64,000 bases of DNA from an uncultured Lachnospiraceae bacterium (GTDB lineage Bacteria; Bacillota; Clostridia; Lachnospirales; Lachnospiraceae), in NCBI GenBank assembly GCA_902779305.1, contig CACZBD010000010.1, forward strand, positions 62,001 through 126,000, in the 5' to 3' direction. The notes under the pieces were generated by a model that made no database searches, was not told the origin of the DNA, and saw only the letters and a list, made by a program, of their open reading frames with translations. How positions within the stretch are numbered: position 1 is the first letter of the stretch; each line of letters starts with the position of its first letter. Positions 14,038-51,245 of this stretch are shown one piece after another. A program made the translations under genes and the position numbers.

Positions 14038-14042
14038 ATCGC

Positions 14043-18506: not shown

Positions 18507-18538
18507 GAAGATAGACCTGATCACGGAGTGAAAGTAAG

Positions 18539-19648: not shown

Positions 19649-19650
19649 GT

Positions 19651-19719: not shown

Positions 19720-19734
19720 TGCAGGTTTATTTAC

Positions 19735-19766: not shown

Positions 19767-19787
19767 TTACAGGAAGGATATCAGTTC

Positions 19788-20561: not shown

Positions 20562-20577
20562 TAAAAAGGTGGATACC

Positions 20578-21354
20578 ATGAAAGTAGTGATCCTGGCGGG
20601 AGGCATGGGAACACGCCTCGGGGAGGAAACCGTCAGCAAACCGAAACCGATGGTGGAGATCGGAGGGAAGCCGATCCTATGGCATATCATGAAGACGTAT
20701 TCTTCATACGGATTTCATGACTTTGTCATCTGCTGCGGCTATAAAGGCCCGATGATCAAGGACTATTTCATCAACTATAACCACTACCAGTCCGACTGCA
20801 CTTATCTGACCGGCACGCAGGAGATCGAAACCGTGCATTCCCGTGTGGAGCCTTGGAAAGTCACCCTGGTCAATACGGGGCTGAAGACGATGACAGCCGG
20901 CAGGATCTTAAGGGCGAGGGAATACATTGGCGAAGAACCGTTCCTTCTGACCTACGGAGACGGAGTTGCGGATCTGAATATCCCGGAACTCCTTGATTTT
21001 CACAGAGCGCACGGAAAGATCATCACGATCTCGACCACGCAGCCGCCCGGGAGATTCGGCGCCCTTTCCATCGACGAAGGCGGCGTCATCAGAGGCTTTA
21101 AGGAAAAAGCAAGAAAAGACCAGTCCTGGGTCAACATCGGCTATATGGTCTGTGAACCGAAGATCTATGAATACTTAGGGGACGGCGCGGAAATGCTCGA
21201 AGCCGGACCGTTTGAAAAACTTGCAGCCGATGAACAGATGGCGGCTTATCCGCATCCGGGATTCTGGTCGCCGATGGATACGATCCATGACAGGGATTAT
21301 CTGGAAAAACTCTGGCAGAGCGGGGAAGCACCCTGGGCAGCCGGTTGGAAATAA
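20578..21354 (+). CDS. Glucose-1-phosphate cytidylyltransferase (RfbF)-like
   Basis: A 258-residue nucleotidyltransferase with a full signature: MKVVILAGGMGTRLGEET, KPKPMVEIGGKPILWHIM, FVICCGYKG, NTGLKTMTAGR, TYGDGVADLN (metal-binding Asp), PPGRFGALSID and VNIGYMVCEPK. This is the RfbF pattern, CTP + glucose-1-phosphate to CDP-glucose. ATG 20578 follows AAAAAGGTGG; a GTG at 20569 overlaps that site. CDP-glucose 4,6-dehydratase (RfbG) is absent from the window, so either CDP-glucose is used elsewhere or the sugar phosphate is another product of the neighbouring aldolase/TPP/cyclase genes, perhaps phosphorylated by the following GHMP kinase. Confidence 0.85.
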   Translation: MKVVILAGGMGTRLGEETVSKPKPMVEIGGKPILWHIMKTYSSYGFHDFVICCGYKGPMIKDYFINYNHYQSDCTYLTGTQEIETVHSRVEPWKVTLVNTGLKTMTAGRILRAREYIGEEPFLLTYGDGVADLNIPELLDFHRAHGKIITISTTQPPGRFGALSIDEGGVIRGFKEKARKDQSWVNIGYMVCEPKIYEYLGDGAEMLEAGPFEKLAADEQMAAYPHPGFWSPMDTIHDRDYLEKLWQSGEAPWAAGWK

Positions 21355-21403
21355 ATCTTTTCGCACTATGTGAGCGGAAGATACTATTTTTGGAGGAAAG
21401 AAT

Positions 21404-22378
21404 ATGATCATTGCAAGAAGTCCACTGAGAATATCACTTGGAGGAGGCGGAACGGATCTGCCGTCTTATTATGAGCAGCGGGAAGGGTTCCTGATCTCCG
21501 CCGCGATCGATAAGTATGTTTACCTGACTCTGCATCAGACTTTCGAGGAAGGCTTCTTCCTGAAGTATTCCAAGTTCGAAAGAGTCCAGAGCATTGACGA
21601 GATCCAGCACCCGATCATCCGGGAAGCGCTGAAAATGCTGGATTGGAAAGACAATCATATTGAGATCTGTTCCATGGCCGACATTCCGGCAGGCACGGGA
21701 CTCGGATCTTCTTCGAGCTTTACAACGGCACTGCTTCGCGCGCTTCACACCATGCAGGGCAATATCGTCAGCACGAGAACGCTTGCAGAAGAAGCCTGTG
21801 AGATCGAAATGAACCGCCTGAAGGAGCCGATCGGCAAACAGGATCAGTATATCGCTGCTTACGGCGGTATCACCTGTATGGATTTTCATAAGGACGGTTA
21901 TGTCTGGGTGGATCCTCTGAACATTACCAAAGAGACCCTTTATAATCTGGAGGACAATCTCTGCCTGTACTTTACCGGCTTTTCGAGATCTGCGGGCTCG
22001 ATCTTAAAAGAGCAGGATGATAAGAGTAAAGACAAGAACGAGGATATGATCAAAAATCTGGACTTTGTCAAAGACTTGGGATTCCAGAGCAAGGCAGCTT
22101 TTGAAAAGGGCGATCTGGACACGTTTGCGGACATCATGAACGTGCACTGGGAATACAAGAAGAAACGCTCCGGCGGCATGAGCAATCCGCAGATTGACGA
22201 GTGGTACGACCTTGCAAGGAATAACGGCGCGCTTGGCGGCAAGATGATCGGCGCCGGCGGCGGCGGATTCCTGCTGTTCTATACCAAGGACAAAATGCGC
22301 CTTCGTGATGCCTTGAAAGACACCGGCATGAGTGAAGTCCGTTTCCGCTTTGAGATGGAAGGGGCAAAAGTCTTGTAA
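21404..22378 (+). CDS. GHMP kinase, heptose-7-phosphate kinase (HddA)-like
   Basis: A 324-residue GHMP-family kinase. It begins MIIARSPLRISLGGGGTDLP, carries the ATP-binding PAGTGLGSSSSFTTALL (about 95-111), KQDQYIAAYGG, and the third motif GGKMIGAGGGGFLL near the C-terminus. This is the HddA / D-glycero-D-manno-heptose-7-phosphate kinase group; related kinases act on C1 of other sugars. TGGAGGAAAG precedes the start. It closes the sugar block directly after the two cytidylyltransferases, consistent with kinase then nucleotidyltransferase activation of one sugar. No GmhA isomerase or GmhB phosphatase is present, so a heptose route is incomplete here and the substrate is open. Confidence 0.85.
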   Translation: MIIARSPLRISLGGGGTDLPSYYEQREGFLISAAIDKYVYLTLHQTFEEGFFLKYSKFERVQSIDEIQHPIIREALKMLDWKDNHIEICSMADIPAGTGLGSSSSFTTALLRALHTMQGNIVSTRTLAEEACEIEMNRLKEPIGKQDQYIAAYGGITCMDFHKDGYVWVDPLNITKETLYNLEDNLCLYFTGFSRSAGSILKEQDDKSKDKNEDMIKNLDFVKDLGFQSKAAFEKGDLDTFADIMNVHWEYKKKRSGGMSNPQIDEWYDLARNNGALGGKMIGAGGGGFLLFYTKDKMRLRDALKDTGMSEVRFRFEMEGAKVL

Positions 22379-24514: not shown

Positions 24515-24808
24515 ATGAAAAAACTAACAGGTTATCTAGTCCTTGGTGCAGTTGTTTTTGGTACGGGAATGCTTTTGTTCGGGCTGAATGTAAATGCGTA
24601 TATCGACCCGTCCGTTTCCACCTATCTCATTCAGGCCGTAGCCGGCATCATCTTTGCCGTCGGCGCTGCGCTCGGGATCTATTTCCGCAAAGCCAAAAAG
24701 AAGATCAACAAAACCCTGAACATTGATGAAAATAAAGGGAAAGAGGTGGAATCCGACGAGATCATCTTAAGCACGGAAGATGAGAAAACGGAGAACCCGG
24801 AGAACTAA
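24515..24808 (+). CDS. Small AYIDPS-motif membrane protein (module copy 1)
   Basis: A 97-residue protein starting MKKLTGYLVL at 24515 after CGGAGGAGA. A first hydrophobic segment (about 5-27) reads as a signal peptide/anchor ending VNAYIDPSVSTYLIQAVAGI. A second span (about 33-55) precedes a basic stretch (FRKAKKKINK) and an acidic tail. The motif AYIDPS plus QAVxGI recurs in the 91-residue protein at 43129. Both genes sit immediately upstream of a YidC-TagF fusion gene, here by 15 bases. Related AYIDPG-type small proteins occur near envelope genes in other bacteria, with no known role. It may be a partner subunit or substrate of the fusion; that is inference from conserved pairing. Confidence 0.82.
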   Translation: MKKLTGYLVLGAVVFGTGMLLFGLNVNAYIDPSVSTYLIQAVAGIIFAVGAALGIYFRKAKKKINKTLNIDENKGKEVESDEIILSTEDEKTENPEN

Positions 24809-24823
24809 AGCAAGGTACGTAAA

Positions 24824-26734
24824 ATGGAATACTTATATCGTTTTTTAGGGTGGATCATGAATGGTTGCTACGCGCTGCTGCATCAGTACGGGCTGGCAAT
24901 CATTCTATTCACGTTTATCAGTAAGATCGTGATCCTGCCGGTGTCGTTGTGGACCTATTTTAATTCCATCACGATGATCAAGATCACGCCGGACAGTAAT
25001 TTTATCAAAGCAAAATATTACGGGCAGCCTGACGAGATCGCGGAAGCGCAGTCGAAACTGTTCAAAGAGAAAAAGTACCATCCGATGGCTTCCACGATCC
25101 CGCTGATCATCCAGCTGATCCTGTTGATGGGCGTGGTCGGCGTGATCCGTCAGGGGATCGAAAATCCGGCCATCGATATGAACTTTTTGGGGATCAACCT
25201 TGGCATGGTTCCTTCAAAAGAGGGTGTCCGTCTCTTGTGGTCGCCTCTTGTGGCCGGCTTTTCCGCATGGCTTTTATGCATCGCGCAGAATACCAGCAAT
25301 GTGCTGCAGGCGGAGCAGTCTAAACTGAACAAGATCGGCACCATGGTCTTTTCTGTCGGACTGTCCCTGTATCTTGGCTGGTTCGTGCCGATCGGCACGG
25401 CCTTTTACTGGGTATGCTCCAATCTGCTTGCCATCGTGCAGCTCTACATCACGAACTGGATCGTGCGTCCGAGAAGATTCGTGGACTACGAGCGCCTCGA
25501 GGAGAGCAGAAGACAGCTTGCGTTGATGAAAAGCGCAGGAGGTTCCAAAAAGAAAAAGGAATCGTTCTTTTCGCCTGTCCGCAAAAAAGAGAGAGCGGAT
25601 TACAAGCGGTTCTTTTCCATCCTCAACAAGCATCTGGTGTTCTATTCCGAGAGCAGCGGGTTCTATAAGTATTTTAAGGGAATGATCGAATGGCTTCTTA
25701 AGAATACGAATCTGACGATCCACTACATTACGGGGGATCCGGACGATCAGGTCTTTGAACTTGCAAAAGAACAGGAGAAACTGAAACCGTATTATATCGG
25801 TGAAAATCGCCTGATCACGCTGATGATGAAACTCGAAGCCGATGTGGTCGTCATGACGATGCCGGATCTTGAGACCTATCATATCAAACGCAGTTATTCC
25901 AGAAAGGATATCGAATATATTTATGTCCAGCACGGCATGGGCAGCAACAATATGGGCATGCGCAAAGGGAGCCTGGATCACTTCGATACGATCTTCTGCG
26001 CAGGGGAACATCAGAAGATTGAAGTGGAACAGACCGAGAAAGTGTACAGCTTGAAGAAGAAAACGCTCGTGGAAGTGGGCTATCCTCTGATCGATGAGAT
26101 GAGAGCCGCCTACGAGGCGAAAGAACATCCGAAACACGAGCGGCCGAAGATCCTGATCGCGCCCAGCTGGCAGAAAGACAATATCATTGACAGCTGTTTG
26201 GAACAGATCCTTGATGTTTTAAAGGGCAAAGGATATGAGATCATCGTCCGCCCGCACCCGCAGGAAGTGCGCTTAAAGAGGGATTACATCGAAAGCATCA
26301 AGAAACGCTACGATTCGGATGAGATCGAGATCCAGACTGATTTTTCCTCGAATAATCCGGTGCTTGAGGCGGATCTTCTGATCACGGACTGGTCAGGGAT
26401 CACCTGGGAATATGCTTTTACAACACTGCATCCGGTCCTGTTCATCAACACGCCGATGAAGGTGGAGAATCCCGATTACCAAAAGATCGCGATCGAACCG
26501 CTGAACATTACCTTAAGGGATCAGATCGGAAAGAGCGTGGATCCGGATCAGCCGGAGCTGGTCGCAAAAACCGTGGAAGAACTGCTTGCAAAACAGGACG
26601 AATATCACGCGCGGATCGATGCGCTTTCAGACCGCTATATTTATAATCACGGCACCTCCGCTGTGGTCGGCGCAAAATACATTGTTGAAGCGATCAGGAA
26701 GAAAACGTCGAAGAGAAAGCAGGAACCGGTCTGA
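24824..26734 (+). CDS. YidC/Oxa1 insertase domain fused to TagF-like glycerophosphotransferase (copy 1)
   Basis: A 636-residue protein in two parts. Residues about 1-215 are a YidC/Oxa1-type domain with about five spans: the segment ILFTFISKIVILPVSLW has Lys34 where YidC groove enzymes have Arg, then AKYYGQ, KKYHPMASTIPLIIQL and PIGTAFYWVCSNLLAIVQ. A basic linker follows (about 215-260). Residues about 265-630 match CDP-glycerol:poly(glycerophosphate) glycerophosphotransferases, with His370 in QHGMGSNNMGMRKG, His478 in RPHPQ and Asp522 in ITDWSGITWEYAF. TagF enzymes add glycerol phosphate from CDP-glycerol to wall teichoic acid. The insertase domain would hold the transferase in the membrane, or position a lipid or protein acceptor. 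A second copy lies at 43411. Confidence 0.9.
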   Translation: MEYLYRFLGWIMNGCYALLHQYGLAIILFTFISKIVILPVSLWTYFNSITMIKITPDSNFIKAKYYGQPDEIAEAQSKLFKEKKYHPMASTIPLIIQLILLMGVVGVIRQGIENPAIDMNFLGINLGMVPSKEGVRLLWSPLVAGFSAWLLCIAQNTSNVLQAEQSKLNKIGTMVFSVGLSLYLGWFVPIGTAFYWVCSNLLAIVQLYITNWIVRPRRFVDYERLEESRRQLALMKSAGGSKKKKESFFSPVRKKERADYKRFFSILNKHLVFYSESSGFYKYFKGMIEWLLKNTNLTIHYITGDPDDQVFELAKEQEKLKPYYIGENRLITLMMKLEADVVVMTMPDLETYHIKRSYSRKDIEYIYVQHGMGSNNMGMRKGSLDHFDTIFCAGEHQKIEVEQTEKVYSLKKKTLVEVGYPLIDEMRAAYEAKEHPKHERPKILIAPSWQKDNIIDSCLEQILDVLKGKGYEIIVRPHPQEVRLKRDYIESIKKRYDSDEIEIQTDFSSNNPVLEADLLITDWSGITWEYAFTTLHPVLFINTPMKVENPDYQKIAIEPLNITLRDQIGKSVDPDQPELVAKTVEELLAKQDEYHARIDALSDRYIYNHGTSAVVGAKYIVEAIRKKTSKRKQEPV

Positions 26735-26735
26735 T

Positions 26736-27212
26736 ATGAAGAAGAGATTCCTGATCATCGCCGTGATCGCAATGAGCCTCGCGCTTGCCTGGGCTGTTTC
26801 CGCTTATTTTTTTCAGGTTGCCATTGTACAGGGACGTTCCATGGAACCCTCGATCAGGCACCTGACGCCTGTTCTGATCGACAAACGTGCCACAGACTTT
26901 TGCCCCGGAGAGATCGTTGCCTTTCATTGCGAGGGCCTGTCCGCGGTGCTTTTTAAACGTGTGGCAGGAGTCCCGGGGGACAGGATACTGATCAAAGACG
27001 GCACCCTTTACCGGAACGGAGAACCTTCGACGTTTTATCCGGAAGGTGCTTTTACGGATGCGGGGATCCTTGGGGAAGAGACCGAACTTGCAAATGATGA
27101 ATATATCGTGATCGGCGACAATATCGCGGAAAGCAAAGACAGCAGAGATCCTGACGTCGGGTGCGTGAAGGAAAATGACATGATCGGGAGATTATGCTAT
27201 ACTTTTTGGTGA
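26736..27212 (+). CDS. Signal peptidase I (S26 family), short form
   Basis: A 158-residue protein beginning MKKRFLIIAVIAMSLALAW at 26736, just after the fusion gene stop at 26734. One N-terminal span anchors it (about 4-28). The catalytic Ser is in QGRSMEPS and the Lys in FKRVAGVPGD. The GDNIAESKDSRDPDVGCV box near the end is the conserved family domain (GDN..S.DSR..G.V). It is at the short end of the Gram-positive range. Signal peptidases remove signal peptides outside the membrane. Position between a membrane transferase fusion and a polytopic membrane protein suggests a dedicated enzyme for proteins of this locus, perhaps the AYIDPS protein, but a general housekeeping role cannot be excluded. 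Confidence 0.88.
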   Translation: MKKRFLIIAVIAMSLALAWAVSAYFFQVAIVQGRSMEPSIRHLTPVLIDKRATDFCPGEIVAFHCEGLSAVLFKRVAGVPGDRILIKDGTLYRNGEPSTFYPEGAFTDAGILGEETELANDEYIVIGDNIAESKDSRDPDVGCVKENDMIGRLCYTFW

Positions 27213-29405: not shown

Positions 29406-30878
29406 ATGCTGTTTAACTCGGTTGATTTTATTCTGTTTTTTCCGATCGTTACGATCCTGTATTTTGTGATCCCGAAAAAAGTCAGGTATCTCTGGCTTCT
29501 CTTTGCGTCCTATTATTTTTATATGAGTTGGAACGCCAAATATGCGCTCCTGCTCCTGTTTTCCACAACCGTGACGTATCTAAGCGGTCTTCTGATCGGG
29601 AAGAGCAACACGACCGGGAAAAAGAAAGCGGTCGTTGCCGCAAGTTTTATCCTGAATCTCGGGGTTTTGTTCTTTTTCAAATATATCAATTTTGCCGCGC
29701 TTGGGATCGCAAAGGTTTTGGGGCTCCTGCATATCAGCGCGAACATACCTGTTTTTGACATTCTTCTTCCGGTCGGGATCTCGTTTTTTACCTTCCAGGC
29801 GCTCAGCTATACGATGGATGTTTTCCGGGGAGATATTCAGGCGGAGAAAAACTTCTTCCGTTATGCTCTGTATGTTTCTTTTTTTCCGCAGCTTGTTGCG
29901 GGACCGATCGAGAGATCCTCGAACCTGTTAAAGCAGCTTTCGGCACCGAAACCTTTTGATTTTGAAAAAGCAAGGGACGGTTTTTTGCTGATGCTTTGGG
30001 GATACTTTTTGAAGCTGGTCCTTGCGGATAGGATCGCGATTGTTGTCGATACGGTTTATAACGATCATACGGCTTATACGGGCTGGTATCTGATCGTTGC
30101 GACGCTTTTGTTCGCGGTGCAGATCTACTGTGATTTTGCCGGCTATTCCACGATCGCCGTCGGCGCTGCGAAGATCCTCGGCATCGATCTGATGGAAAAC
30201 TTCGATGCACCGTATCTTGCGGAAACCGTGACGGACTTCTGGAAGAGATGGCATATCTCACTGACTTCGTGGTTCAGGGATTATCTTTACATTCCGCTTG
30301 GCGGAAACCGGAAAGGGAAGATCCGGAGGGATATCAACCGGTTGATCGTGTTTCTGGTGAGCGGCCTCTGGCATGGTGCAGCTTTCCATTTCGTGGTCTG
30401 GGGCGGGATCAACGGCCTGTATCAGATCATCGGCGGATGGCTTCGCCCGGTCAGAGAACGCATCAGCAGGATCTTAAAACTTCATCCGGATTCGCCCGGC
30501 ATCAGGATCCTGAAGATCCTTACAACGTTCCTGCTGGTTGATTTTTCCTGGATCTATTTTCGTTCGGACAGCCTGCACAGCGCTCATTCAGTCATCGCTT
30601 CGATCTTTGGAGCCGATAACCTGTGGATCCTGTTTGACGGTTCACTCTATCAGCTGGGACTAAGCGAGAAGAATTTCCGCCTGATGCTTGTTTGTATCTG
30701 TGTGTTGTTATTTGCGGACGTGATGAAGCGGCGCGGGATCTGTATCCGCCAAAAGATTGCGGAGCAGGACTATGTTGTACGCTGGCTGGTGATCGCAATT
30801 GCGATCGTGTTCATCCTGACATTCGGCATTTACGGACCGGGTTATAAGGCTGCGAATTTTATCTATTTTCAGTTCTGA
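29406..30878 (+). CDS. MBOAT-family O-acyltransferase (AlgI-like), copy 1
   Basis: A 490-residue membrane-bound O-acyltransferase. It starts MLFNSVDFILFFPIVTILYF, a typical MBOAT beginning, with ILLPVGISFFTFQALSYTMD, FFPQLVAGPIERS, FAGYSTIAVGAAKILGI, NFDAPYLAETVTDFWKRWHISLTSWFRDYLYIP (conserved segment at about 261-293) and the catalytic-His region SGLWHGAAFHFVVWG. AlgI and relatives pass acyl groups across the membrane to sugars outside. The SGNH-type gene downstream, 11 bases away, would be the outer transferase, as in AlgI/AlgJ-X or DltB/DltD pairs. The donor acyl group (likely acetyl) and the polymer modified are not identifiable from the sequence. Confidence 0.92.
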   Translation: MLFNSVDFILFFPIVTILYFVIPKKVRYLWLLFASYYFYMSWNAKYALLLLFSTTVTYLSGLLIGKSNTTGKKKAVVAASFILNLGVLFFFKYINFAALGIAKVLGLLHISANIPVFDILLPVGISFFTFQALSYTMDVFRGDIQAEKNFFRYALYVSFFPQLVAGPIERSSNLLKQLSAPKPFDFEKARDGFLLMLWGYFLKLVLADRIAIVVDTVYNDHTAYTGWYLIVATLLFAVQIYCDFAGYSTIAVGAAKILGIDLMENFDAPYLAETVTDFWKRWHISLTSWFRDYLYIPLGGNRKGKIRRDINRLIVFLVSGLWHGAAFHFVVWGGINGLYQIIGGWLRPVRERISRILKLHPDSPGIRILKILTTFLLVDFSWIYFRSDSLHSAHSVIASIFGADNLWILFDGSLYQLGLSEKNFRLMLVCICVLLFADVMKRRGICIRQKIAEQDYVVRWLVIAIAIVFILTFGIYGPGYKAANFIYFQF

Positions 30879-30889
30879 GGGAGTAAGAA

Positions 30890-41298: not shown

Positions 41299-43101
41299 AT
41301 GAAACTTAGAATTAAGGAAAGAATCACACTACTTATTGTGAGCATCTTTCTGACATTTACTGTTTGTATTTATGCACCGGTTTCGGTTTATGTATCCAAT
41401 AAAGACGAATTTTGGTTCAATCTCCGGATCATGATCACAACGCCGGTTGTCTTCTGGGTGGTTGCGACTCTTGTTATTGTTCTCCTGGGCATGTTATTGC
41501 CCGATAAACTGTATCATATTTATTTGTCCCTCGTCTTTGGAACAGGGCTTTGTTTCTATTTACAGGGTAATTTTCTGAGTCTGCGTGTCGGTATCTTAAA
41601 CGGAGCAAAGATTAACTGGGCTGATTACCGGGTGAAGATGTGGCTCAATGCCGGGATCTGGTTGCTGATCCTTTGTGCAGTTGTTGCGCTTTTTCTTTGG
41701 AAATCCAAAATGATGGGGAAAATAGTTATGTATATAGCGGCCTTATTAACCATCATGCAGATCGGCTCGCTGGTTGTGATGTTTACGTCTTCCCTTTCGG
41801 CAGAGGATATCACATCCCCTGTCCGTCCCGTAATCACTACAGAGGGGCTCTATGAAGTTGGAGAAGAGAATATCATCGTATTTGTTTTAGATACTTTTGA
41901 TGAGGAATACTTCAGATATATAACGGAAGAACATCCGGAGATCACTGATGAACTCGACGGTTTTGTATTCTATGACAATTATGCCGGAGCTTATCCAACA
42001 ACGGTGTATTCTATAGCACATTTTATGGGCGGAAAGCTTTTTCGCAATGAAATGCCCATGAAAGATTGGCTTGCGGATACCGTGGAGCATCCGCATTATT
42101 TTGATGAACTGACAGGACATGGGTATGAATTATATCTATATACTACAATGACTGAGCAGATTCCTCAAAAAATAAAGGAGAAAACAAAGAATTATACGAA
42201 AGCACCCATGCAGTTTTATAATACAAGGACATGCTTTTCGGTGATATATCGGCTGGCAGCGTGTCAGTATTTTCCGGATATCGTGAAGCCATATGTCTGG
42301 ATGGATGGAACGGAGATCGCATCAACCGGGAAACTGAGTAGTGAGTATCCGATTTATGATGATGCAAATGAACTGTTTAAGAGCAGACTGGACGACAGCG
42401 GCCTGAAAAAGAAAGAAGGAAAACAGTACAAATTTATCCATCTGTTTGGGGTACATGAACCTTACCGGATCGACGAGTGGGGAAACGAAGTGGATCCATA
42501 TTGGGAATGGCCCGATTGTGCAACGGGATGCATGCGGATCATGCTCGAGTATCTGACATTTCTTAAGGAAAACGGTGTGTACGATGATTCTGCGATCATC
42601 ATCACCGCAGATCATGGCTTTACGGAGGGCGTGTATCGAGGAGTACTTTCAAATCCTGTTTTTCTTATAAAAGAAAAGGGAGCGAAAGGTGAATTGAAGA
42701 CCTGCAGTTATGAAGCAAGTCAGGATAATTTCGGCGCGACTATTGCGGACCTTAGCGGTGCGGAGGATGTTTCTCCTTATGGATTGAGTATTCTTGATGC
42801 TACTGAGGACAGGCACTTTGACAGATACTGCTATCAATATGTGCTGGAAGAAGGCAAGCACTGGCCGACTATGGTGAACGGCAACCTTTATCTTGTTGAA
42901 TATCAGGTTCCGGATCTGTCAAATGACCCGTCAGGTTACCTGCTTACCGATGTGGAATACACTCCGACAGGAAGGAAGATTTCGCATAAAGCATATTGCG
43001 AGAACTGTTCAAAACCGGAGCCGTTATATGAAGATGTACAGGGATGGAAAGCACAACCGCACCTGCATATCGGTGACTATTTGTTGGATATGGATAAATG
43101 A
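41299..43101 (+). CDS. Membrane sulfatase-fold protein, LTA-synthase/phosphoglycerol-transferase-like
   Basis: A 600-residue protein with four N-terminal spans (about 10-32, 45-68, 73-95 and 115-160) and an outer alkaline-phosphatase-superfamily domain (about 195-560). It carries NIIVFVLDTFDEEYF with metal-binding Asp, YAGAYPTTVYSIAHFMGG with a candidate Thr nucleophile, FIHLFGVHEPYR and ITADHGFTEG with metal ligands. The layout resembles LtaS-type glycerophosphate transferases and other lipid-linked phospho-transferases. It directly precedes the second AYIDPS/YidC-TagF module, so it may build or modify the same polymer. A sampled line here (42181-42240) has only 20 G/C of 60, lower than upstream genes. 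Confidence 0.8.
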   Translation: MKLRIKERITLLIVSIFLTFTVCIYAPVSVYVSNKDEFWFNLRIMITTPVVFWVVATLVIVLLGMLLPDKLYHIYLSLVFGTGLCFYLQGNFLSLRVGILNGAKINWADYRVKMWLNAGIWLLILCAVVALFLWKSKMMGKIVMYIAALLTIMQIGSLVVMFTSSLSAEDITSPVRPVITTEGLYEVGEENIIVFVLDTFDEEYFRYITEEHPEITDELDGFVFYDNYAGAYPTTVYSIAHFMGGKLFRNEMPMKDWLADTVEHPHYFDELTGHGYELYLYTTMTEQIPQKIKEKTKNYTKAPMQFYNTRTCFSVIYRLAACQYFPDIVKPYVWMDGTEIASTGKLSSEYPIYDDANELFKSRLDDSGLKKKEGKQYKFIHLFGVHEPYRIDEWGNEVDPYWEWPDCATGCMRIMLEYLTFLKENGVYDDSAIIITADHGFTEGVYRGVLSNPVFLIKEKGAKGELKTCSYEASQDNFGATIADLSGAEDVSPYGLSILDATEDRHFDRYCYQYVLEEGKHWPTMVNGNLYLVEYQVPDLSNDPSGYLLTDVEYTPTGRKISHKAYCENCSKPEPLYEDVQGWKAQPHLHIGDYLLDMDK

Positions 43102-43128: not shown

Positions 43129-43404
43129 ATGAAGAGAAAACTGCTTTTGTTAAGTTCTGTATTAATGAATCTGTCAGCACTGTTCATCCTGTTTCCGCTT
43201 CCGGTACAGGCTTACATCGATCCGTCCGCCGTTTCCTATGTTGCACAGGCTGTGATAGGAATCGTGGTGGCACTGATAGCATGTCTGACGATTTTCAGGC
43301 ATAAGATTGTTTCTTTTTTAAAAAAGAACAAAAATGAAGAGAAGAAAGAAGTACACTTTAAAGATCTTGATTCCAATGATACGGAATCCAAAGAGGACCA
43401 GTGA
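43129..43404 (+). CDS. Small AYIDPS-motif membrane protein (module copy 2)
   Basis: A 91-residue protein. Residues 1-25 form a signal-like segment ending VQAYIDPSAVSYVAQAVIGI. A span (about 38-60) is followed by a Lys-rich (SFLKKNKNEEKK) and then acidic tail. AYIDPS, VSY/STY and QAVxGI are shared with the 97-residue protein at 24515. Outside this the two differ strongly, so the motif block, not the rest, is under constraint. It is six bases upstream of the second YidC-TagF fusion, repeating the gene order of copy 1. The start at 43129 follows GAAGGAGAATG. Function unknown; obligate partner of the fusion is inferred. Confidence 0.82.
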   Translation: MKRKLLLLSSVLMNLSALFILFPLPVQAYIDPSAVSYVAQAVIGIVVALIACLTIFRHKIVSFLKKNKNEEKKEVHFKDLDSNDTESKEDQ

Positions 43405-43410: not shown

Positions 43411-45315
43411 ATGTTTAGTATTACACATTATATAGGCATCTTTTTCGCATGGATGCTGAAGACATGTTATTTTTTTGTGGGAAACTTTGGTTGGGCAATC
43501 TGGTTATTTACTTTTTTGACCAAGATTGTCATGTTACCGGTTTCCGTTATTGTGCAGTTGAATTCAATAAAGATCGTAAAACTGTATCCGGAAATGAACC
43601 GGTACCGTGCGAAATATTACGGAGACAGGGATATGATCTCCGAAGCACAGTATAAACTGTATAAACAAGCGAAATATCATCCGATTCTTGATCTGATCCC
43701 CATTTTTTTACAATTGGTCTTGCTGTTGGGTGTTGTAGAGGGCATCCGAAGCCTTATGGGGGACGGCTATGCAATGACATGGTTCGGACTGAATCTGGCA
43801 GAAGTTCCCATCAAAACCGGCGGCCCCATACTGCTGATCCCGTTCTTAGCAGCGCTTTCGGCTTTGATTATGTGTGCGACCCAGAACATGTCAAATGTCC
43901 TTCAGGCAGAGCAGAACAGGGTAAATAAGATCGTGACCCTTTCGGTTTCTGTTCTTCTCTCGTTATATTTGGGATTTTTTGTCCCTGCGGGGATTGGTTT
44001 GTACTGGATCGCGAGCAATCTTTTCTCTGTTGCACTCATGTATATTCTGAATTTCTTTATCAATCCGCGCAAACACATCGACTATGATGCATTGAAAGAG
44101 AGTAAGGCGGCATTGGAGAAATTGAAAGAAGAGGACAAACAGAAGAAAAAATCAAGAAGCAGAGAAGAACTTGCAAAGGAGAAAGAAGATTACAGACGCT
44201 TTGTGAAAGCCGGCACAAAACAGATTGTTTTTTATTCCGAGAAGAACGGGTTTTATAAATATTTCAAGGATATCATTGAATATATCATAAGGCGTACGGA
44301 TATCGTTATCCACTATGTTACCAGCGACATGAATGATGAGGTCTTCGGGCTGGAGTCCGATCAGTTTCATGTATATTACTGCGATGGGAACAAACTGGTG
44401 GTTCTTATGATGAAACTCGATGCGGATGTTGTGGTCATGACAGTACCGGACCTTCAAAGATATTTTATCAAACGTTCCCTGATCCGTCCGGATGCTGAGT
44501 ATGTATATATTGACCACGGGATCGGAAGTATCAATATGCTCCTTCGCAAACATGCTTTGGATCATTTTGATACTGTTTATGCGACCAATGAAACAAAACT
44601 CCGGGAAATCCGTGCGCAGGAGGAAACTTACGGACTGAAGCAGAAAACGGTGGTGGAGTGCGGGTTCAGTCTGATCGATAATATGATCCAAAACTATGAG
44701 AGGGAGCATGCGGACCAAAGTGATGTTATTTCCGAAGTCCCGAAGATCCTGATCGCACCATCCTGGCAGGATGATAATATATTGGATCTTTGCATTGATG
44801 AGATATTGGACCGGCTGCTAGGGAACGGATATCATATCATAGTCCGCCCGCATCCGCAGCATGTGAGGCATCACATGGAAGAACTGCGCTCGCTGGAAGC
44901 TAAATATGCAAGCCATAACGATTTTGAATTGCAGATTGACTTTTCCTCAAATAAAACGGTTTATGATGCGGACATCCTTATGACAGACTGGTCAGGAATC
45001 TGCTTTGAGTATTCATTTACTACATTAAAGCCGACATTGTTTATCGATACGCCGATGAAAGTAATGAATCCTGATTATGAAGAAATCGGTGTTATACCGA
45101 TGGATATTGAGATCCGCAACCGGATCGGGATATCCATAGCACCCGATAACCTGTCCGAAATAAACAATGCGGTCGAGAGGCTTCTTCACGAAGATGCCTT
45201 TAGCAGGCAGGAATTGAAGAAGATCCGTGAAAAGTACCTATACAATATCGGAAAGAGTGCAGAGGTTGGCGGAGATTATCTGATCAAGGCAGTCATCAGA
45301 AAAAGCAAGTCATAG
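43411..45315 (+). CDS. YidC/Oxa1 insertase domain fused to TagF-like glycerophosphotransferase (copy 2)
   Basis: A 634-residue protein collinear with the 636-residue fusion at 24824. The YidC-type domain occupies about 1-220: AIWLFTFLTKIVMLPVSV with Lys38 in place of the groove Arg, RAKYYGD, KYHPILDLIPIFLQLVLLLG and PAGIGLYWIASNLFSV. A basic linker (about 225-265) contains KQKKKSRSREELAKEKEDYR. The transferase domain (about 270-625) has His369 in DHGIGSINMLLRK, His481 in RPHPQHVRH and Asp526 in MTDWSGICFEYSF. Downstream genes predict CDP-choline synthesis, so the natural donor may be CDP-choline or another CDP-alcohol rather than CDP-glycerol. Its stop codon lies within a terminator hairpin. 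Confidence 0.9.
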   Translation: MFSITHYIGIFFAWMLKTCYFFVGNFGWAIWLFTFLTKIVMLPVSVIVQLNSIKIVKLYPEMNRYRAKYYGDRDMISEAQYKLYKQAKYHPILDLIPIFLQLVLLLGVVEGIRSLMGDGYAMTWFGLNLAEVPIKTGGPILLIPFLAALSALIMCATQNMSNVLQAEQNRVNKIVTLSVSVLLSLYLGFFVPAGIGLYWIASNLFSVALMYILNFFINPRKHIDYDALKESKAALEKLKEEDKQKKKSRSREELAKEKEDYRRFVKAGTKQIVFYSEKNGFYKYFKDIIEYIIRRTDIVIHYVTSDMNDEVFGLESDQFHVYYCDGNKLVVLMMKLDADVVVMTVPDLQRYFIKRSLIRPDAEYVYIDHGIGSINMLLRKHALDHFDTVYATNETKLREIRAQEETYGLKQKTVVECGFSLIDNMIQNYEREHADQSDVISEVPKILIAPSWQDDNILDLCIDEILDRLLGNGYHIIVRPHPQHVRHHMEELRSLEAKYASHNDFELQIDFSSNKTVYDADILMTDWSGICFEYSFTTLKPTLFIDTPMKVMNPDYEEIGVIPMDIEIRNRIGISIAPDNLSEINNAVERLLHEDAFSRQELKKIREKYLYNIGKSAEVGGDYLIKAVIRKSKS

Positions 45316-45347: not shown

Positions 45348-45407
45348 GCTCTTGTGTTCACGAAAAACAGTTTTTGCAATTTCGTGAAAATCATCCAGAG
45401 CTATCCT

Positions 45408-47159
45408 ATGAACAGACAAGAAGAAGATATTCTTACAACGATATATTCGAATCCATTTTCAGGGCAGCGTGTGCTCTCGGAACAGAGCGGACATTCGCTG
45501 GGGGTAGTTAACAAATCTCTCAGATCCCTTACAGAAGAGGGTTATTTGGATGAGAAGATGCAGCCGACACCAAAAGCGCTGCACGAGATCAAACTGAAAT
45601 CCCCTCGAAATGCCATTATTCTGGCTGCAGGATTCGGCATGCGTATGGTGCCGATCAATATGGAAACGCCAAAAGCGTTATTGGAAGTCCATGGGGAAGT
45701 ATTGATCGAGAGGATCATTCGTCAACTTTGGGAAGCCGGGATCCGTGATATTACAGTTGTAGTCGGATTCATGAAAGAACAATTTGAATATCTGATCGAT
45801 GAATTCGGGGTAAACCTTCTTGTCAATATGGATTATTCCGCAAAGAATAATCTTCACACACTTGCTTTGGCCGCTGCAAAACTATCCAATTCATATATCA
45901 TTCCCTGCGATCTTTGGTGCGAGATCAATCCTTTCAGAAAACATGAGCTGTATTCCTGGTATATGGTGAATGATCTGGTGGATGACGACAGTTCGGTAAG
46001 GGTTAATCGCCGTATGGAACTGGTATACACTCCGAAATCACTAGGCGGGAATACGATGATAGGGATTGCCTATCTTACAGAGGAACAAAGTAAGGTTGTC
46101 AGGGACAAACTTGTACGGATGGACGAAAACGCCTTGTATCGAAATGCTTTTTGGGAAGAGACGCTTTTCGAAGAAGGGCGTATGATCGTACAAGCCCGTG
46201 TGGTGCACGCCTATGAGGTGGAAGAGATCAATACCTACGAGCAGTTACGTGAAATTGATGAAAAATCCAATCATTTACAGTCTAATGCGATCAAAACAAT
46301 CGCGAAAACCCTGAGAGTACAAGAACAGGAGATCACGGATATTCGGGTCCTGAAGAAGGGAATGACCAATCGTTCTTTCCTGTTCAGTTGCGACCATGAT
46401 TCATATATCATGCGCATTCCCGGCGAAGGGACGGAGAAACTGATCAACCGGGAACAGGAAGCGGCCGTATATCGCGTGATCAAAGACCGGAAGATCAGCG
46501 ATGAGATCATTATGATCGATCCGAGAACAGGATATAAGATCACAAAATATTGGGAAAATGCAAGGGTATGTGATACCAATTCATTGGATGATCTTCGTAT
46601 ATGTATGGAGAAACTGCGACAGCTGCATCGATTAAAGCTGGAAGTTTCGCATGAATTTCATATTTTTGATATGATCGATTTCTATGAAGGATTATGGCCT
46701 GATGGAAGGTCGATATATAAGGATTATGTTCAGGTCAAGAAAAATGTGTTCTCGCTGAAGCCTTTTATTGAAAAAAATATTTCATGCAGATGCCTGACTC
46801 ACATTGATGCGGTGCCGGATAATTTTCTGATCCTTCCCGATCATGAAGTAAGACTGATCGATTGGGAATATGCGGCAATGCAGGATCCTCATGTCGATCT
46901 TGCGATGTTCTGTATCTATTCCATGTATGAGAAAGAACAGATTGACCGATTGATAGATATTTATTTTGAAAACAAGTGTCCGGAAATGGTCAGACTCAAG
47001 ATCTATTGCTATATTTCCGCCTGTGGATTGCTTTGGAGTAATTGGTGTGAATACAAGAGAAGTCTCGGCGTGGAATTTGGCGAGTATTCCCTGCGGCAAT
47101 ATCATTATGCCAAGGAGTATTATTCGCTTGTTTCCGACAAAATAGGAGCAAAACAGTGA
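45408..47159 (+). CDS. Trifunctional fusion: winged-HTH, LicC-like cytidylyltransferase, LicA-like choline kinase
   Basis: A 583-residue protein from ATG 45408. Residues about 1-58 form a winged helix (EDILTTIYSNPFSGQRVLSE, LGVVNKSLRSLTEEGYL). About 63-290 is a nucleotidyltransferase (IILAAGFGMRMVPIN, TPKALLEVHGE) like LicC, CTP:phosphocholine cytidylyltransferase. About 300-583 is a choline-kinase/APH domain: GMTNRSFLFSC, IMRIPG, then His465-Asp467-Asn472 in THIDAVPDNF and LIDWEYAAMQDP. Together the enzymes could turn choline into CDP-choline. The HTH is odd in a biosynthetic enzyme and may regulate the locus. The next gene overlaps its stop by one base. Confidence 0.87.
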   Translation: MNRQEEDILTTIYSNPFSGQRVLSEQSGHSLGVVNKSLRSLTEEGYLDEKMQPTPKALHEIKLKSPRNAIILAAGFGMRMVPINMETPKALLEVHGEVLIERIIRQLWEAGIRDITVVVGFMKEQFEYLIDEFGVNLLVNMDYSAKNNLHTLALAAAKLSNSYIIPCDLWCEINPFRKHELYSWYMVNDLVDDDSSVRVNRRMELVYTPKSLGGNTMIGIAYLTEEQSKVVRDKLVRMDENALYRNAFWEETLFEEGRMIVQARVVHAYEVEEINTYEQLREIDEKSNHLQSNAIKTIAKTLRVQEQEITDIRVLKKGMTNRSFLFSCDHDSYIMRIPGEGTEKLINREQEAAVYRVIKDRKISDEIIMIDPRTGYKITKYWENARVCDTNSLDDLRICMEKLRQLHRLKLEVSHEFHIFDMIDFYEGLWPDGRSIYKDYVQVKKNVFSLKPFIEKNISCRCLTHIDAVPDNFLILPDHEVRLIDWEYAAMQDPHVDLAMFCIYSMYEKEQIDRLIDIYFENKCPEMVRLKIYCYISACGLLWSNWCEYKRSLGVEFGEYSLRQYHYAKEYYSLVSDKIGAKQ

Positions 47160-47872
47160 TGCATACAGTCAAAAGAGCCATTATTGTGGCAGCAGGCATC
47201 GGGAAACGCCTGCGCCCGGTTACGCTGGATATTCCAAAGCCGCTGGTGCCGGTCAACGGTATCAGGATGATCGACACCGTTATTTTAGGACTTCATGAAA
47301 ACGGAATTAACGAAATTTATATTGTAGTCGGCTATCTGAAGGAGAAATTTCAATGCCTTACGCGAGAATATAAAGGTATCACATTGATCGAGAATCCGTA
47401 TTATGAGACCTGCAACAATATTTCTTCTCTCTACATGGCGCGTGATCATTTGGAAGAGGCAATGATCCTGGATGGCGACCAGCTGATCCTGAATAAGAGA
47501 ATCCTGTCTCCCTCTTTTGACAAGTCGGGATATAGTGCTGTTTGGACAGAGAATGATACTAAAGAATGGCTGATGAAGGAGGAGAATGGAAAGGTGGTTT
47601 CATGCAGCCGTGCCGGTGGAAAAGATGGCTGGCAATTGTACAGCATTTCCCGATGGACCGGGCTGGACGGAAAGAAATTGAAGGCTTTTTTGGAATACGA
47701 GTTTGAGGAAAAATCAAACCGGCAGATCTACTGGGATGATGTTGTAATGTTTTGTCATTTTGCAGACTTTGATCTGCAGGTCTATCCCATGCAAAAAGAA
47801 GATGTTCTGGAAATAGACAGTTACGGGGAATTATGCAGATTGGACAGCGATTATAAAGCACATAAAGCATAG
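47159..47872 (+). CDS. LicC-like nucleotidyltransferase
   Basis: A 237-residue single-domain nucleotidyltransferase starting MHTVKRAIIVAAGIGKRLRP at 47159, with AGGAGC upstream. A GTG three bases earlier is also in frame. IPKPLVPVNGIRMID follows the signature, NPYYETCNNISSLYMARDHL is the phosphocholine-type substrate region known from LicC (an N-Y-x-x-C-N-N pattern), and MILDGDQLIL holds the metal-binding Asp. It overlaps the stop of the HTH-LicC-LicA fusion by one base and precedes the BCCT transporter by 13 bases. It probably makes CDP-choline or CDP-ethanolamine; having two cytidylyltransferases in a row suggests two different alcohols. Confidence 0.85.
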   Translation: MHTVKRAIIVAAGIGKRLRPVTLDIPKPLVPVNGIRMIDTVILGLHENGINEIYIVVGYLKEKFQCLTREYKGITLIENPYYETCNNISSLYMARDHLEEAMILDGDQLILNKRILSPSFDKSGYSAVWTENDTKEWLMKEENGKVVSCSRAGGKDGWQLYSISRWTGLDGKKLKAFLEYEFEEKSNRQIYWDDVVMFCHFADFDLQVYPMQKEDVLEIDSYGELCRLDSDYKAHKA

Positions 47873-47885: not shown

Positions 47886-49391
47886 ATGAAAAAAATAAAA
47901 ATTGACTGGACACTTACATTGCTGCCTTTACTTACCATCATATTGTTGGGCATTCTTTTTTTTATCATGCCTGAACAATCCAATGCAATTCTGAGCAGGA
48001 TCAGGTTCTTTTTCGGAGATACATTAGGAACCTATTATCTGATCATCGGATTGGCGGTTTTTCTGATCTCTTTGTTTCTGATCGTTTCCAAATATGGAGA
48101 CATTGTTCTTGGTGATCCGTCGGAAAAGCCTAAATATTCGTTTTTTGCATGGGGAAGCATGATGTTTACATGCGGTCTGGCGGCTGATATTCTGTTTTAT
48201 TCATTTTCTGAATGGGTCATGTATGCCACGAACCCACATGTGACGCAAATGGGGCCTTTTGAAGAATGGGCGCCTGTTTTTCCGGTTTTCCACTGGAGTC
48301 TCATCCCTTGGGCATTTTATCTGGTACTTGCAGTTGCCTTTGGCTTTATGCTTCATGTACGAAAAAGGGACAGGCAGAAGTATTCTGAGGCTTGCCGCCC
48401 TGTTTTGGGCAAATATACGGATGGATGGGGTGGAAGGATCATCGATCTTCTGGCTGTTTTCGCACTGATCGCAGGTACAGCTACGACTTTCAGTGTAGCA
48501 ACGCCGCTTATGTCGAGTATCCTGGTGGAACTGTTCCATATAGAGGTCAACAGAACACTTGTTACCATTATAATTCTGGTCATCACATGTGCCATTTATA
48601 CCTGCTCAGCTCTGCATGGGATCAAAGGAATGAATCTTCTTTCGAAAATCTGTATTTTTATGTTTTTCGGGCTGATCGTTTTTGTTTTCTTCTTCGGTGG
48701 AAAAACTCAATATATTATAGACACGGGCGTGGAGTCCCTTGGTAGGATGATCCAGAATTTTGTTGGACTTTCCACCTATACCGACCCCATGCGCACGAAT
48801 AATTTTCCGCAGGATTGGACGATCTACTATTGGGCATACTGGATGGTATGGTGTGTGGCTGCGCCATTCTTCATCGGCAATATTTCGCAGGGCCGGACGA
48901 TTCGCCAGACAGTGATCGGTGGGTATGTGTTCGGTGTGGGATCCACCATTGTAAGCTTTATTGTGTTGGGTAATTATTCTTTGGGACAGCAGATTTCCGG
49001 TGCTGCCGATTACATTTCGGAATATGCAGAAACCGGTGATCTATATGCCATGATCATTCATATCGTCAAAACCTTACCGTGTGCTCCGTTTATTCTGGTG
49101 GTAATCCTGCTCACGATGCTTGTATTTTACGCAACGTCCTTTGACTCGATCGCATATACGGCGGCCTGTTACAGTTATCATCAGCTGGGTGAAAATGAGA
49201 GCCCGCACACATGGATCAAACTATTATGGTGTATTTTGCTGATCATACTTCCGGTTGCGCTTGTTTTTTCGGAGAGTTCCATGAATAACCTTCAGTCGGT
49301 AAGCATCGTTGCCGCTTTTCCGATCGGAATCGTTATGATACTGATCATCTGGTCCTTCTTTAAAGATGCTAAAAAATATATAAAAATGTGA
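47886..49391 (+). CDS. BCCT-family (betaine/carnitine/choline) transporter
   Basis: A 501-residue protein with twelve membrane spans typical of BCCT symporters. Hallmarks seen are KYGDIVLGDPSEKPKYSFFA (the conserved GD..PE.S..SW-like block, here SFFAWGSMMFTCGLAADI), WSLIPWAFYLVLAVAFGF, WTIYYWAYWMVWCVAAPFFIG with the aromatic box region, SQGRTIRQTVIGG and FVTSFDS-like YATSFDSIAY. The usual EPxxH part of the SW-xxGxG motif is partly altered. BCCT carriers bring quaternary ammonium compounds into the cell, so this one would supply choline for the adjacent LicA/LicC enzymes. AGGAGCGGAG precedes the start. It is the last gene of the choline operon. Confidence 0.88.
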   Translation: MKKIKIDWTLTLLPLLTIILLGILFFIMPEQSNAILSRIRFFFGDTLGTYYLIIGLAVFLISLFLIVSKYGDIVLGDPSEKPKYSFFAWGSMMFTCGLAADILFYSFSEWVMYATNPHVTQMGPFEEWAPVFPVFHWSLIPWAFYLVLAVAFGFMLHVRKRDRQKYSEACRPVLGKYTDGWGGRIIDLLAVFALIAGTATTFSVATPLMSSILVELFHIEVNRTLVTIIILVITCAIYTCSALHGIKGMNLLSKICIFMFFGLIVFVFFFGGKTQYIIDTGVESLGRMIQNFVGLSTYTDPMRTNNFPQDWTIYYWAYWMVWCVAAPFFIGNISQGRTIRQTVIGGYVFGVGSTIVSFIVLGNYSLGQQISGAADYISEYAETGDLYAMIIHIVKTLPCAPFILVVILLTMLVFYATSFDSIAYTAACYSYHQLGENESPHTWIKLLWCILLIILPVALVFSESSMNNLQSVSIVAAFPIGIVMILIIWSFFKDAKKYIKM

Positions 49392-49427: not shown

Positions 49428-51245
49428 ATGCAGGCAATCATTCTGGCAGCCGGAATGGGAAAGCGCTTAAAGGAGCTGACCGAAAACAATACCAAGTGCA
49501 TGGTCAAAGTCAACGGAAAAACGCTTGTGGAACGCCTTCTTGGCCAGCTTGACAAAAGACATCTGTCGAGGATCGTGATCGTTACCGGTTACAAGGGCAG
49601 GGAACTCATCGACTATATCGATACCCTGCAAGTGAAGACCCCCATCGTATATGTGGACAATCCGATCTATGACAAGACGAACAACATCTATTCGCTGTCT
49701 CTTGCCAAAGAGTTTCTCAGAAATGATGATACCCTTCTTTTTGAATCCGATCTGATCTTTGAAGACAGTGTGATCGATCTTCTGATCGACGATCCGCGGG
49801 AAAATCTCGCTTTGGTGGACAAGTACCAGAGCTGGATGGACGGCACCTGCGTGACGCTTGACGATCATGATGCGATCGAGCAGTTCATTCCCGGAAACAA
49901 GTTTAAATATGCGGACAGAGACCGGTATTACAAAACGGTCAATATCTATAAATTCAGCAGATCTTTTGCCGGGGAATACTACATTCCCTTTATGGAGGCT
50001 TATCTTTCGGCTCTGGGCGAAAACGAGTACTATGAGCAGGTCTTAAGAGTCATCACCATGCTGGATGAACCCGTGATCCGCGGAAAGCGCTTAAACGGGC
50101 AGAAATGGTATGAGATCGACGATATCCAGGATCTGGATATTGCGATGTCGCTGTTTGCCGATGATGAGGAAGAGCGGCTTCATCGGATGCAGGAGCGTTA
50201 CGGCGGCTACTGGCGCTATCCCGGTATGCTGGATTTCTGCTATCTGGTCACACCGTACTATCCGACGAAGCGTCTGAAAGCGGAACTGCGCGCAAGCTTT
50301 GACCAGCTCCTTACCGCTTATCCTTCCGGCATGAAAGTCAATGCATTGCTTGCCGCCAAGTATTTCAACATTCATCAGGAAAATATCGTTGTCGGAAACG
50401 GCGCCGCGGAACTGATCAAAGCGCTTATGGGGCGTTTTTCGGGAAAAACCGGCTTCATCCGTCCGACTTTTGAGGAATATCCGAACAGGTATGCAGAAGA
50501 TCTTGCTATCGTTTATGAACCTGCAGAACCTGATTTTTCCTATACGGTCGATGATCTGACCGCCTTTTATGAAGGAAAAGAGATCAGCAACCTCATCCTG
50601 ATCAATCCGGACAACCCGAGCGGCAGCTACATTTCGCATAAGGACCTGTTAAGGCTCATCGAATGGGCAAAAGCGCATCGGAGCCGTCTGGTCGTTGATG
50701 AGTCGTTTTCGGATTTTGCCGTTGATGAACAGACCACCGTGATCACGCAGGAGATCGTGGATTCTTATTCCGGATTGTATATCGTAAAGAGTATCTCCAA
50801 ATCCCACGGCGTGCCGGGGCTTCGTCTCGGGATCCTGGTGTCTTCCGACACACAGACGATCGCAGAGATGAAGAAGGAAGTATCGATCTGGAACATCAAC
50901 TCCTTTGCGGAATTCTATATGCAGATCGCCGAGAAATACAAGAAGGACTATGCGGCGGGCCTGCAGAAACTGATCGAAACCAGAGAGCGGTTTATTGAGA
51001 AACTGAAGCAGATTTCCGGACTTCGTGTCATTCCGTCCCAGGCAAATTATGTATTGATCGAACTGGTCAACGGAAATTCCGCTTTGGAACTGTCCAAGAG
51101 GCTTCTGATCGATCATCATATCCTGATCAAGGATCTGAGCGCAAAGATCGCAAGCGGACAGTATATCCGGCTGGCTGTTCTTGATGACGAGAGCAATGCG
51201 GTAATAATCGAAGCATTAAGAAGTGAGTTGAAAAGTCGTGGCTGA
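49428..51245 (+). CDS. LicC-like nucleotidyltransferase fused to fold-type I PLP aminotransferase/decarboxylase
   Basis: A 605-residue fusion. Residues about 1-240 form a nucleotidyltransferase (MQAIILAAGMGKRLKEL, NTKCMVKVNGKTLVERLL, NPIYDKTNNIYSLSLA, FESDLIFED). Residues about 258-600 are a class I/II PLP enzyme like HisC or CobD: GNGAAELIKAL, INPDNPSGSYIS, VVDESFSDFA, then Lys458 in SISKSHGVPGLRLGILV and QANYVLIELV. CobD-like enzymes decarboxylate phosphothreonine or phosphoserine, so one protein could make CDP-ethanolamine from phosphoserine. HisC-like transamination is the alternative. Its composition is closer to earlier GC-richer genes (34 G/C of 60 in a sampled line) than to the choline operon just upstream. 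Confidence 0.85.
   Translation: MQAIILAAGMGKRLKELTENNTKCMVKVNGKTLVERLLGQLDKRHLSRIVIVTGYKGRELIDYIDTLQVKTPIVYVDNPIYDKTNNIYSLSLAKEFLRNDDTLLFESDLIFEDSVIDLLIDDPRENLALVDKYQSWMDGTCVTLDDHDAIEQFIPGNKFKYADRDRYYKTVNIYKFSRSFAGEYYIPFMEAYLSALGENEYYEQVLRVITMLDEPVIRGKRLNGQKWYEIDDIQDLDIAMSLFADDEEERLHRMQERYGGYWRYPGMLDFCYLVTPYYPTKRLKAELRASFDQLLTAYPSGMKVNALLAAKYFNIHQENIVVGNGAAELIKALMGRFSGKTGFIRPTFEEYPNRYAEDLAIVYEPAEPDFSYTVDDLTAFYEGKEISNLILINPDNPSGSYISHKDLLRLIEWAKAHRSRLVVDESFSDFAVDEQTTVITQEIVDSYSGLYIVKSISKSHGVPGLRLGILVSSDTQTIAEMKKEVSIWNINSFAEFYMQIAEKYKKDYAAGLQKLIETRERFIEKLKQISGLRVIPSQANYVLIELVNGNSALELSKRLLIDHHILIKDLSAKIASGQYIRLAVLDDESNAVIIEALRSELKSRG

Follow-up and report, generated by a model that had tools for sequence, protein, structure and literature searches.

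A YidC-fold domain fused to a TagF-like transferase, possibly one half of a four-module surface-tailoring machine

What is the fold of a protein insertase doing inside an apparent surface-polymer enzyme? This question is raised by the window, a stretch of 64,000 nucleotides from an uncultured Lachnospiraceae bacterium (positions 62,001 to 126,000 of contig CACZBD010000010.1, assembly GCA_902779305.1, 94% complete, hereafter genome G000), whose positions are used throughout. Here a single frame of the forward (+) strand (fusion 1, 24824..26734, 636 aa) encodes a YidC/Oxa1 domain (PF02096, 24887..25456, +) followed by a TagF-like Glyphos_transf domain of the GT-B type (25625..26449, +). A gene for a small membrane protein with a YIDP motif lies just upstream (24515..24808, +, 97 aa). 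The established role of YidC is protein insertion; its fold turns out to be built into such apparent surface-polymer enzymes in two ways, joined either to the TagF-like transferase or to an LtaS-like phosphotransferase of the alkaline phosphatase superfamily. I refer to the YidC-fold domain as Y, to the TagF-like transferase as GT, to the small YIDP protein as S and to the LtaS-like phosphotransferase as AP.

A preliminary description of this DNA had reported the YidC and glycerophosphotransferase domains in one open frame, and both are indeed above their Pfam cut-offs in fusion 1: residues 22–211 match PF02096 (E 3.4e-27, 95.8 bits for a cut-off of 35) and residues 268–542 match PF04464 (E 2.7e-14, 53.4 bits for a cut-off of 22.1). 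The protein also exceeds the NCBIfam cut-off for TIGR03592 (85.3 bits versus 84.3). An AlphaFold2 model of fusion 1 built from 44 relatives (mean pLDDT 88.7) has TagF (3l7k) as its top Foldseek match (E 6.5e-11). The N-terminal part of the model matches Bacillus halodurans YidC (3wo7_A; TM by target 0.70, rmsd 2.9, 23% identity). The N-terminal domain therefore models as a YidC, a point on which the interpretation could have fallen. A profile of the fusion alignment retrieves the solved YidC structures from the PDB at 5.9e-23 and, weakly, TarL (8va1, E 0.002). The transferase motifs previously noted, His370, His478 (within Arg476-Pro-His478-Pro, hereafter RPHP) and Asp522, are invariant in 44/44 aligned fusions. 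Calling the transferase domain "full" was fair for the catalytic part, but the Pfam match spans only profile positions 12–293 of 367.

A second small-gene/fusion pair, absent from the preliminary description, lies at 43129–45315. It consists of a gene for a 91-aa YIDP protein with VQA before YIDPS (43129..43404, +) and of fusion 2 (43411..45315, +, 634 aa; Pfam 6.7e-27 and 4.6e-13), which is 48% identical to fusion 1 and narrowly misses the TIGR03592 cut-off (80.4 bits versus 84.3). A scan of contig collections found the fusion pattern in 573 stretches, 508 of which encode relatives, and the best 80 of these 508 were kept as loci. Their titles name Lachnospiraceae, Oscillospiraceae, Saccharofermentans, Erysipelotrichaceae, Solobacterium and others, with Candidatus Saccharibacteria in 13/80; the 80 rows are not all independent, since some loci are one contig seen twice (L105/L157 and L083/L156), and in a few (e.g. 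L041, L069, L093) the fusion frame reaches the contig end. Y and GT share one frame in all 80 loci, from Clostridia, Erysipelotrichaceae and Saccharibacteria alike, and 11 of 146 genomes sampled from the order (the order sample), spread over six families, carry the fusion. A sequencing artefact joining two genes is therefore rejected; with its second occurrence in the window, the fusion is confirmed as real.

In a FastTree phylogeny, the YidC domains of the fusions (89 rows, 1 of 90 being left out for length) form one clade with a split support of 1.0. The most divergent fusions show 36–38% identity. A grouping of the YidC domains joined to GT with those joined to AP has a support of 0.41, which makes a shared origin no more than possible. 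An ordinary-length YidC is also found in eight of the 11 fusion genomes of the order, while G000, G052 and G068 lack one at the search threshold. No other PF02096 match and no Jag_N match was found in G000; I do not believe that the fusion replaces its housekeeping YidC, as the rnpA-yidC-jag locus probably lies in an assembly gap. Compared with insertases such as B. halodurans YidC and Bacillus subtilis SpoIIIJ, with which it shares the fold, the Pfam, NCBIfam and PDB matches and a Lys or Arg in the groove, the domain differs in being joined to a transferase, in forming its own clade and in lying, in the loci inspected, among genes of surface-polysaccharide type. No site covering 80% of the fusion was found in 72,556 plasmid records. 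Three short records labelled Bacteriophage sp. (MT838376.1, MT836947.1 and MT836777.1) hold fusions covering 96–100% of the query and are likely mislabelled bacterial contigs.

The 97-residue AYIDPS protein, described earlier as encoded 15 bases upstream of fusion 1, is found at just that place, and it is a real partner: in 74/80 loci the fusion has a Y[IVL]DPS gene no more than 500 bp away. Among the 74, the small gene is downstream on the same strand in 67, upstream in two and part of an S-AP fusion in five; in 31 rows the small gene and the fusion overlap by four bases. Two further small genes at 1.9 and 3.1 kb bring the total to 76/80. No small gene was found in the available flanking DNA of L072, L074, L080 and L108, the last of which stops 467 bases past the fusion. 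A Y[IL]DP gene is on the fusion's contig in all 11 fusion genomes of the order, including those with divergent fusions (M-YLDPG in G072 and G023, M-YLDPS in G051, M-YIDPA in G068). A search of 341 genomes of the class (the class sample) with a hidden Markov model (HMM) of the small proteins gave 13 genomes with a match at E <=0.01. The five with a strong match (E <1e-10: G000, G073, G052, G371, G460) all have the fusion; no fusion was found in the four of the eight weak-match genomes that were searched (G224, G231, G279, G434).

Small protein 1 has a signal-peptide-like start ending in VNA, then YIDPS, one helix, and a basic followed by an acidic tail (IDENKGKEVESDEI); the tail of the main group is close to IDENKNKEVESDDI. 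Two features are conserved in 12/12 small proteins, Y-x-D-P and, within the helix, a Gln. Known families gave no match above cut-off (best in Pfam, Phage_holin_3_6, 19.6 bits for a cut-off of 28.4; best in NCBIfam, 18.3 bits for a cut-off of 40), and the protein modelled as a lone chain has two helices with a mean pLDDT of 71. The mature protein would begin outside the membrane with YIDPS or YLDPG, cross it by a single helix and have its tail in the cytosol. In this predicted topology and in size, with and without a signal peptide, it recalls the Pf3 coat protein and the M13 procoat, from which it differs by the fixed YIDP motif and the acidic tail. The small proteins of L039 and L006 read identical and probably come from one strain present in both genome collections. 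In L179, L180, L181 and L183, an AYLDPG or AYIDPG small gene is followed by a gene for a 453–474 aa protein with FRDPG or FRDPS near its start; the one such protein tested gave weak methyltransferase matches, and no YidC domain was seen within the 17–19 kb examined. These pairs are a possible sister system.

The gene following fusion 1 encodes a type I signal peptidase (26736..27212, +; PF10502, 1.3e-24). The 76 small proteins fall into two classes by a length rule, not by a predictor: 50 long forms with at least 22 residues before YIDP, which are signal-peptide-like, and 26 short forms with 21 or fewer, mostly below 10. Ala directly precedes YIDP in 50/50 long forms, although the seed copies of the HMM had been chosen with A, V or S at position -1; at -3, 49/50 have A, G, S or V. 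An S26 signal-peptidase gene is near 31/50 long forms versus 0/26 short ones (Fisher 1.7e-8). The link persists without the 13 Saccharibacteria loci (31/50 versus 0/13, 5e-5) and in a more sensitive search restricted to loci with 2 kb or more of DNA downstream (34/41 versus 0/13, 7e-8), shared ancestry being removed only in part from these statistics. It is probable, then, that this peptidase processes the small protein.

The fourth module is encoded directly upstream of the second pair by a 600-aa LtaS-like membrane phosphotransferase of the alkaline phosphatase superfamily (41299..43101, +). It is recognized by its family profile and catalytic residues; by itself it does not reach the cut-off (25) of the Sulfatase family PF00884 (1.9e-4, 21.3 bits), which several relatives pass. 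The profile, built from 20 sequences, has LtaS (2w5q/2w5r) as its best PDB match (1.5e-10). N191, D198, H386 and D438-H439-G440 are present in 20/20, and position 235 is Thr in 19/20 and Ser in one; from what is known of the superfamily, I take these to be the Thr nucleophile and metal ligands. Genes of this kind occur in 57/80 loci; the AP profile recognized 56 of them, and a seed for the membrane half alone picked up the other. L148 (4652-7376) and L154 (11558-13875) have, directly upstream of the fusion, genes for a membrane protein and for a 300–421 aa protein, neither with a Pfam match over cut-off, which are possibly a split or divergent AP partner.

The modules are also joined in other ways. 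S is fused to AP in five loci (L045, L046, L104, L105, L106), with Sulfatase over cut-off in 5/5. AP-Y-GT proteins were found with the AP seed in four (L059, L061, L062, L097); of the two submitted to Pfam, L059 is above the Sulfatase cut-off and L097 below. In four further loci from three genomes (G041 twice, G073 and G778), an AP-Y protein (912–935 aa) occurs together with an S-GT protein (414–432 aa). All three AP-Y proteins tested (L176, L177, L182) have PF02096 and PF00884 above cut-off, as has the one S-GT protein tested (L176) PF04464; locus L178 was detected by the purpose-built profiles only. The YIDPGTGS helix of S-GT occupies the place expected for a membrane anchor of GT, and the RPHP and D-F-S motifs are retained. 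In G778 some 5.6 kb, containing genes of PEP-mutase type, separate the AP-Y gene from the S-GT gene, and G073 has both architectures, Y-GT and AP-Y/S-GT. GT resembles the TagF/TarL wall teichoic acid polymerases (PF04464) in its GT-B fold, its catalytic His, RPHP and Asp motifs and the weak TarL match, and differs from them in being attached to the membrane through Y or, in S-GT proteins, through the YIDP helix; polymerase activity is not implied. AP in turn shares the conserved Thr and metal-ligand residues of LtaS and related transferases and differs in being joined, in some loci, to Y, Y-GT or the YIDP helix.

Lys34 of fusion 1 does occupy the groove position, as stated earlier, but it is no sign of repurposing. 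The position holds K in 84 and R in four of the 88 scorable Y-GT rows (two of 90 are gapped), and R in 18, K in four and Y in one of 23 ordinary YidCs, so that Lys or Arg is found in 88/88 of the former and 22/23 of the latter. Moreover, the portion of PMC8920935 consulted reports that, among the groove variants of Escherichia coli YidC tried with Y517A, only the Lys mutant (R366K/Y517A) was active. Since Lys is functional there and present in ordinary YidCs, I reject the idea that Lys34 shows a loss of insertase activity. In the AP-Y proteins, notably, the position is neutral, Q in two and N in two of four.

That the modules exist, are linked and permuted, and keep their catalytic residues is well supported. 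What they do together is a matter of interpretation. The fusion could be the cytosolic and membrane half of a four-module machine for surface tailoring made of Y, GT, S and AP, a tentative reading to which I give slightly less than even weight. GT, facing the cytosol, would take a small headgroup of phospho or phosphono type from its CMP or CDP form (the candidates are choline-P, ethanolamine-P, aminoethylphosphonate and glycerol-P) and load it on a lipid of the membrane or on a lipid-linked glycan; the YidC groove would let the loaded headgroup cross the membrane; AP, outside, would pass it to a surface polymer. S would hold GT and the membrane parts together; those S proteins that carry a signal peptide would first be matured by the linked peptidase. 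PMC10491306 reports in vitro lipid scrambling by E. coli YidC and by other proteins of the Oxa1 group. Because of this activity, the earlier suggestion of a lipid or polymer being presented to the transferase by the groove is better grounded, while still conjectural; and given scrambling by YidC, a cytosolic transferase of CDP-alcohol type and an outer LtaS-like enzyme, the simplest way to give all four modules a task is a relay of lipid headgroups. That a YidC-fold protein has become a dedicated headgroup flippase in such a relay, in which GT, the YidC groove with the YIDP helix, and AP carry choline-P, ethanolamine-P or phosphonates to surface polymers, is possible, though less likely than not. 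Of the original idea of a repurposed YidC-transferase, the tie to a surface-polymer-type transferase and the AYIDPS partner stand, but the argument from Lys34 falls. It did not include the second pair in the window, AP as a fourth module, the alternative fusions, the signal peptidase linked to S or the genes, described next, that resemble suppliers of headgroups.

Downstream of the second pair lie genes that might supply such headgroups. The first (45354..47159, +) encodes a nucleotidyltransferase and kinase protein (NCBIfam matches to both below cut-off), presumably LicC-like plus LicA-like and a probable source of CDP-choline. It is followed by a putatively LicC-like nucleotidyltransferase (47156..47872, +; NCBIfam nucleotidyltransferase matches below cut-off), by a BCCT transporter of choline/betaine type (47886..49391, +; TIGR00842, 7.4e-124, over cut-off) and by a 605-aa nucleotidyltransferase joined to a CobD/HisC-like pyridoxal phosphate enzyme (NTP-CobD; 49428..51245, +; TIGR01140, 4.2e-49, below cut-off). 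The last may offer a CDP-ethanolamine-type supply, perhaps from phosphoserine. Its relatives are near the fusion in 40/80 loci by BLAST clustering and in 28/80 by best label. Genes labelled NTP-CobD, LicA/LicC, PEP mutase or TagD are near 48/80 loci, the labels being best matches to seed proteins, so that some of the genes may encode other sugar nucleotidyltransferases. TagD-like genes are found in 9/80. LicA-, LicC- and BCCT-type genes lie beside the fusion in G023 and G068, 90 and 94% complete, in neither of which LicD was detected. In G041, G051 and G084 a PEP mutase gene lies only a few kb from the modules, and in G073 and G072 it is on a different contig; PEP mutase is present in 5/12 system genomes versus 9/134 others in the order sample (Fisher 0.002, relatedness uncorrected), an enrichment that is suggestive only. 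A search of G000 itself, 94% complete, found no PEP mutase, and for this reason the NTP-CobD enzyme of the window is unlikely to be a phosphonate (CMP-aminoethylphosphonate) enzyme.

Several observations speak against a four-module headgroup machine. No supply-like label was found around 32/80 loci in the DNA examined, and such gene types are common in surface-polysaccharide clusters anyway, the 48/80 having no matched control. TagG-like ABC transporter genes in 13/80 loci fit an ordinary exported polymer. LicD is encoded in 7/15 system genomes, G000 among them, where headgroup transfer thus has another candidate enzyme besides the fusion. AP was not found in 23/80 loci with the profiles used, partly but not only through contig ends, and its match to LtaS is confined to positions 365-530, late in the AP profile; over the nucleophile region the alignment score was insignificant. 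All four modules in one chain were never seen among the fusions found. YLDPG small genes also occur without a YidC fusion, none being found in the whole G224 genome nor nearby in G568, G527, G481 and G559. Finally, the neutral groove residue of AP-Y means that Y may work differently in the two architectures.

Y could instead be a dedicated insertase that inserts the small YIDP protein in the manner of Pf3 coat or procoat, and the inserted protein would then anchor the transferase or be one of its subunits. Small single-span proteins with a short N-tail out, one helix and a basic tail in are generally known as the classic clients of YidC alone, and translational coupling through the four-base overlap, the signal-less small proteins that begin almost at YIDP, and the constant positive groove residue all agree with this. 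However, most fusion genomes of the order have an ordinary-length YidC as well, YIDPG is covalently joined to GT in the very AP-Y systems whose YidC lacks the groove charge, and YLDPG genes occur in clusters with no YidC fusion nearby; on balance I find a dedicated insertase somewhat unlikely. If Y were merely the membrane anchor and scaffold of a teichoic-type polymerase, the TagF fold match and the TagG-like and TagD-like genes would be accounted for, as would the membrane association that TagF enzymes are generally known to require. A plain anchor is not expected to keep a positive groove residue in 88/88 rows, though, and Y also joins AP in the second architecture, in which GT has an anchor of its own in the YIDP helix. 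This explanation is unlikely. Y might, lastly, be the conduit for a growing polymer in place of TagGH or Wzx, as the TagG-like label is absent from the examined DNA of 67/80 loci and YidC grooves are commonly understood to open to the cytosol and the lipid. But such grooves do not, as far as is generally known, span the bilayer, and TagG-like genes are present in 11/13 Saccharibacteria loci, which makes an exporter very improbable.

The headgroup relay may be compared with Lic/Pnt tailoring (LicA-C, PntC), which ends in LicD-like or unknown transferases and whose later phosphonyl steps are called enigmatic in PMC6697681. LicC/PntC-like nucleotidyltransferases, PEP mutase and phosphonopyruvate-decarboxylase-like genes are found nearby here too, whereas GT and AP, with a YidC step, would end the pathway. 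LicD was not seen beside LicA-C: the single LicD gene of G000 is on another contig (C5). If the relay is true, it would explain how cytosolic CMP- or CDP-activated headgroups reach extracellular glycans in genomes without LicD, would provide a physiological role for lipid scrambling of the YidC type, and would name a new small-protein family with a linked signal peptidase; a flippase would fill in end steps that phosphonate and phosphocholine tailoring still lacks in Saccharibacteria and in many anaerobes of gut and rumen. The individual domain families are all known, and a search of the open-licence PMC literature found no description of the fusion or of the YIDP family, so that, as far as was searched there, the combination and its permutations are undescribed.

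A promoter scan at the locus gave a result near chance (4 found versus a mean of 3.0 in shuffles). At 51525-56954 lies the gene for a probably secreted 1809-aa protein with a peptidase-like N-terminal part and, by eye, many repeated domains. Upstream of the fusions, the region 13243-22378 reads as encoding a short-chain dehydrogenase/reductase, an epimerase, an aldolase-like protein, a thiamine pyrophosphate enzyme, a dehydroquinate-synthase-like protein, two nucleotidyltransferases and a sugar kinase, which looks like an unusual nucleotide-sugar pathway as judged by eye from the translations. Downstream of fusion 1, at 29406-32272, are genes for an MBOAT acyltransferase and for a protein with a weak GDSL match below cut-off, which suggests acylation of the same polymer.

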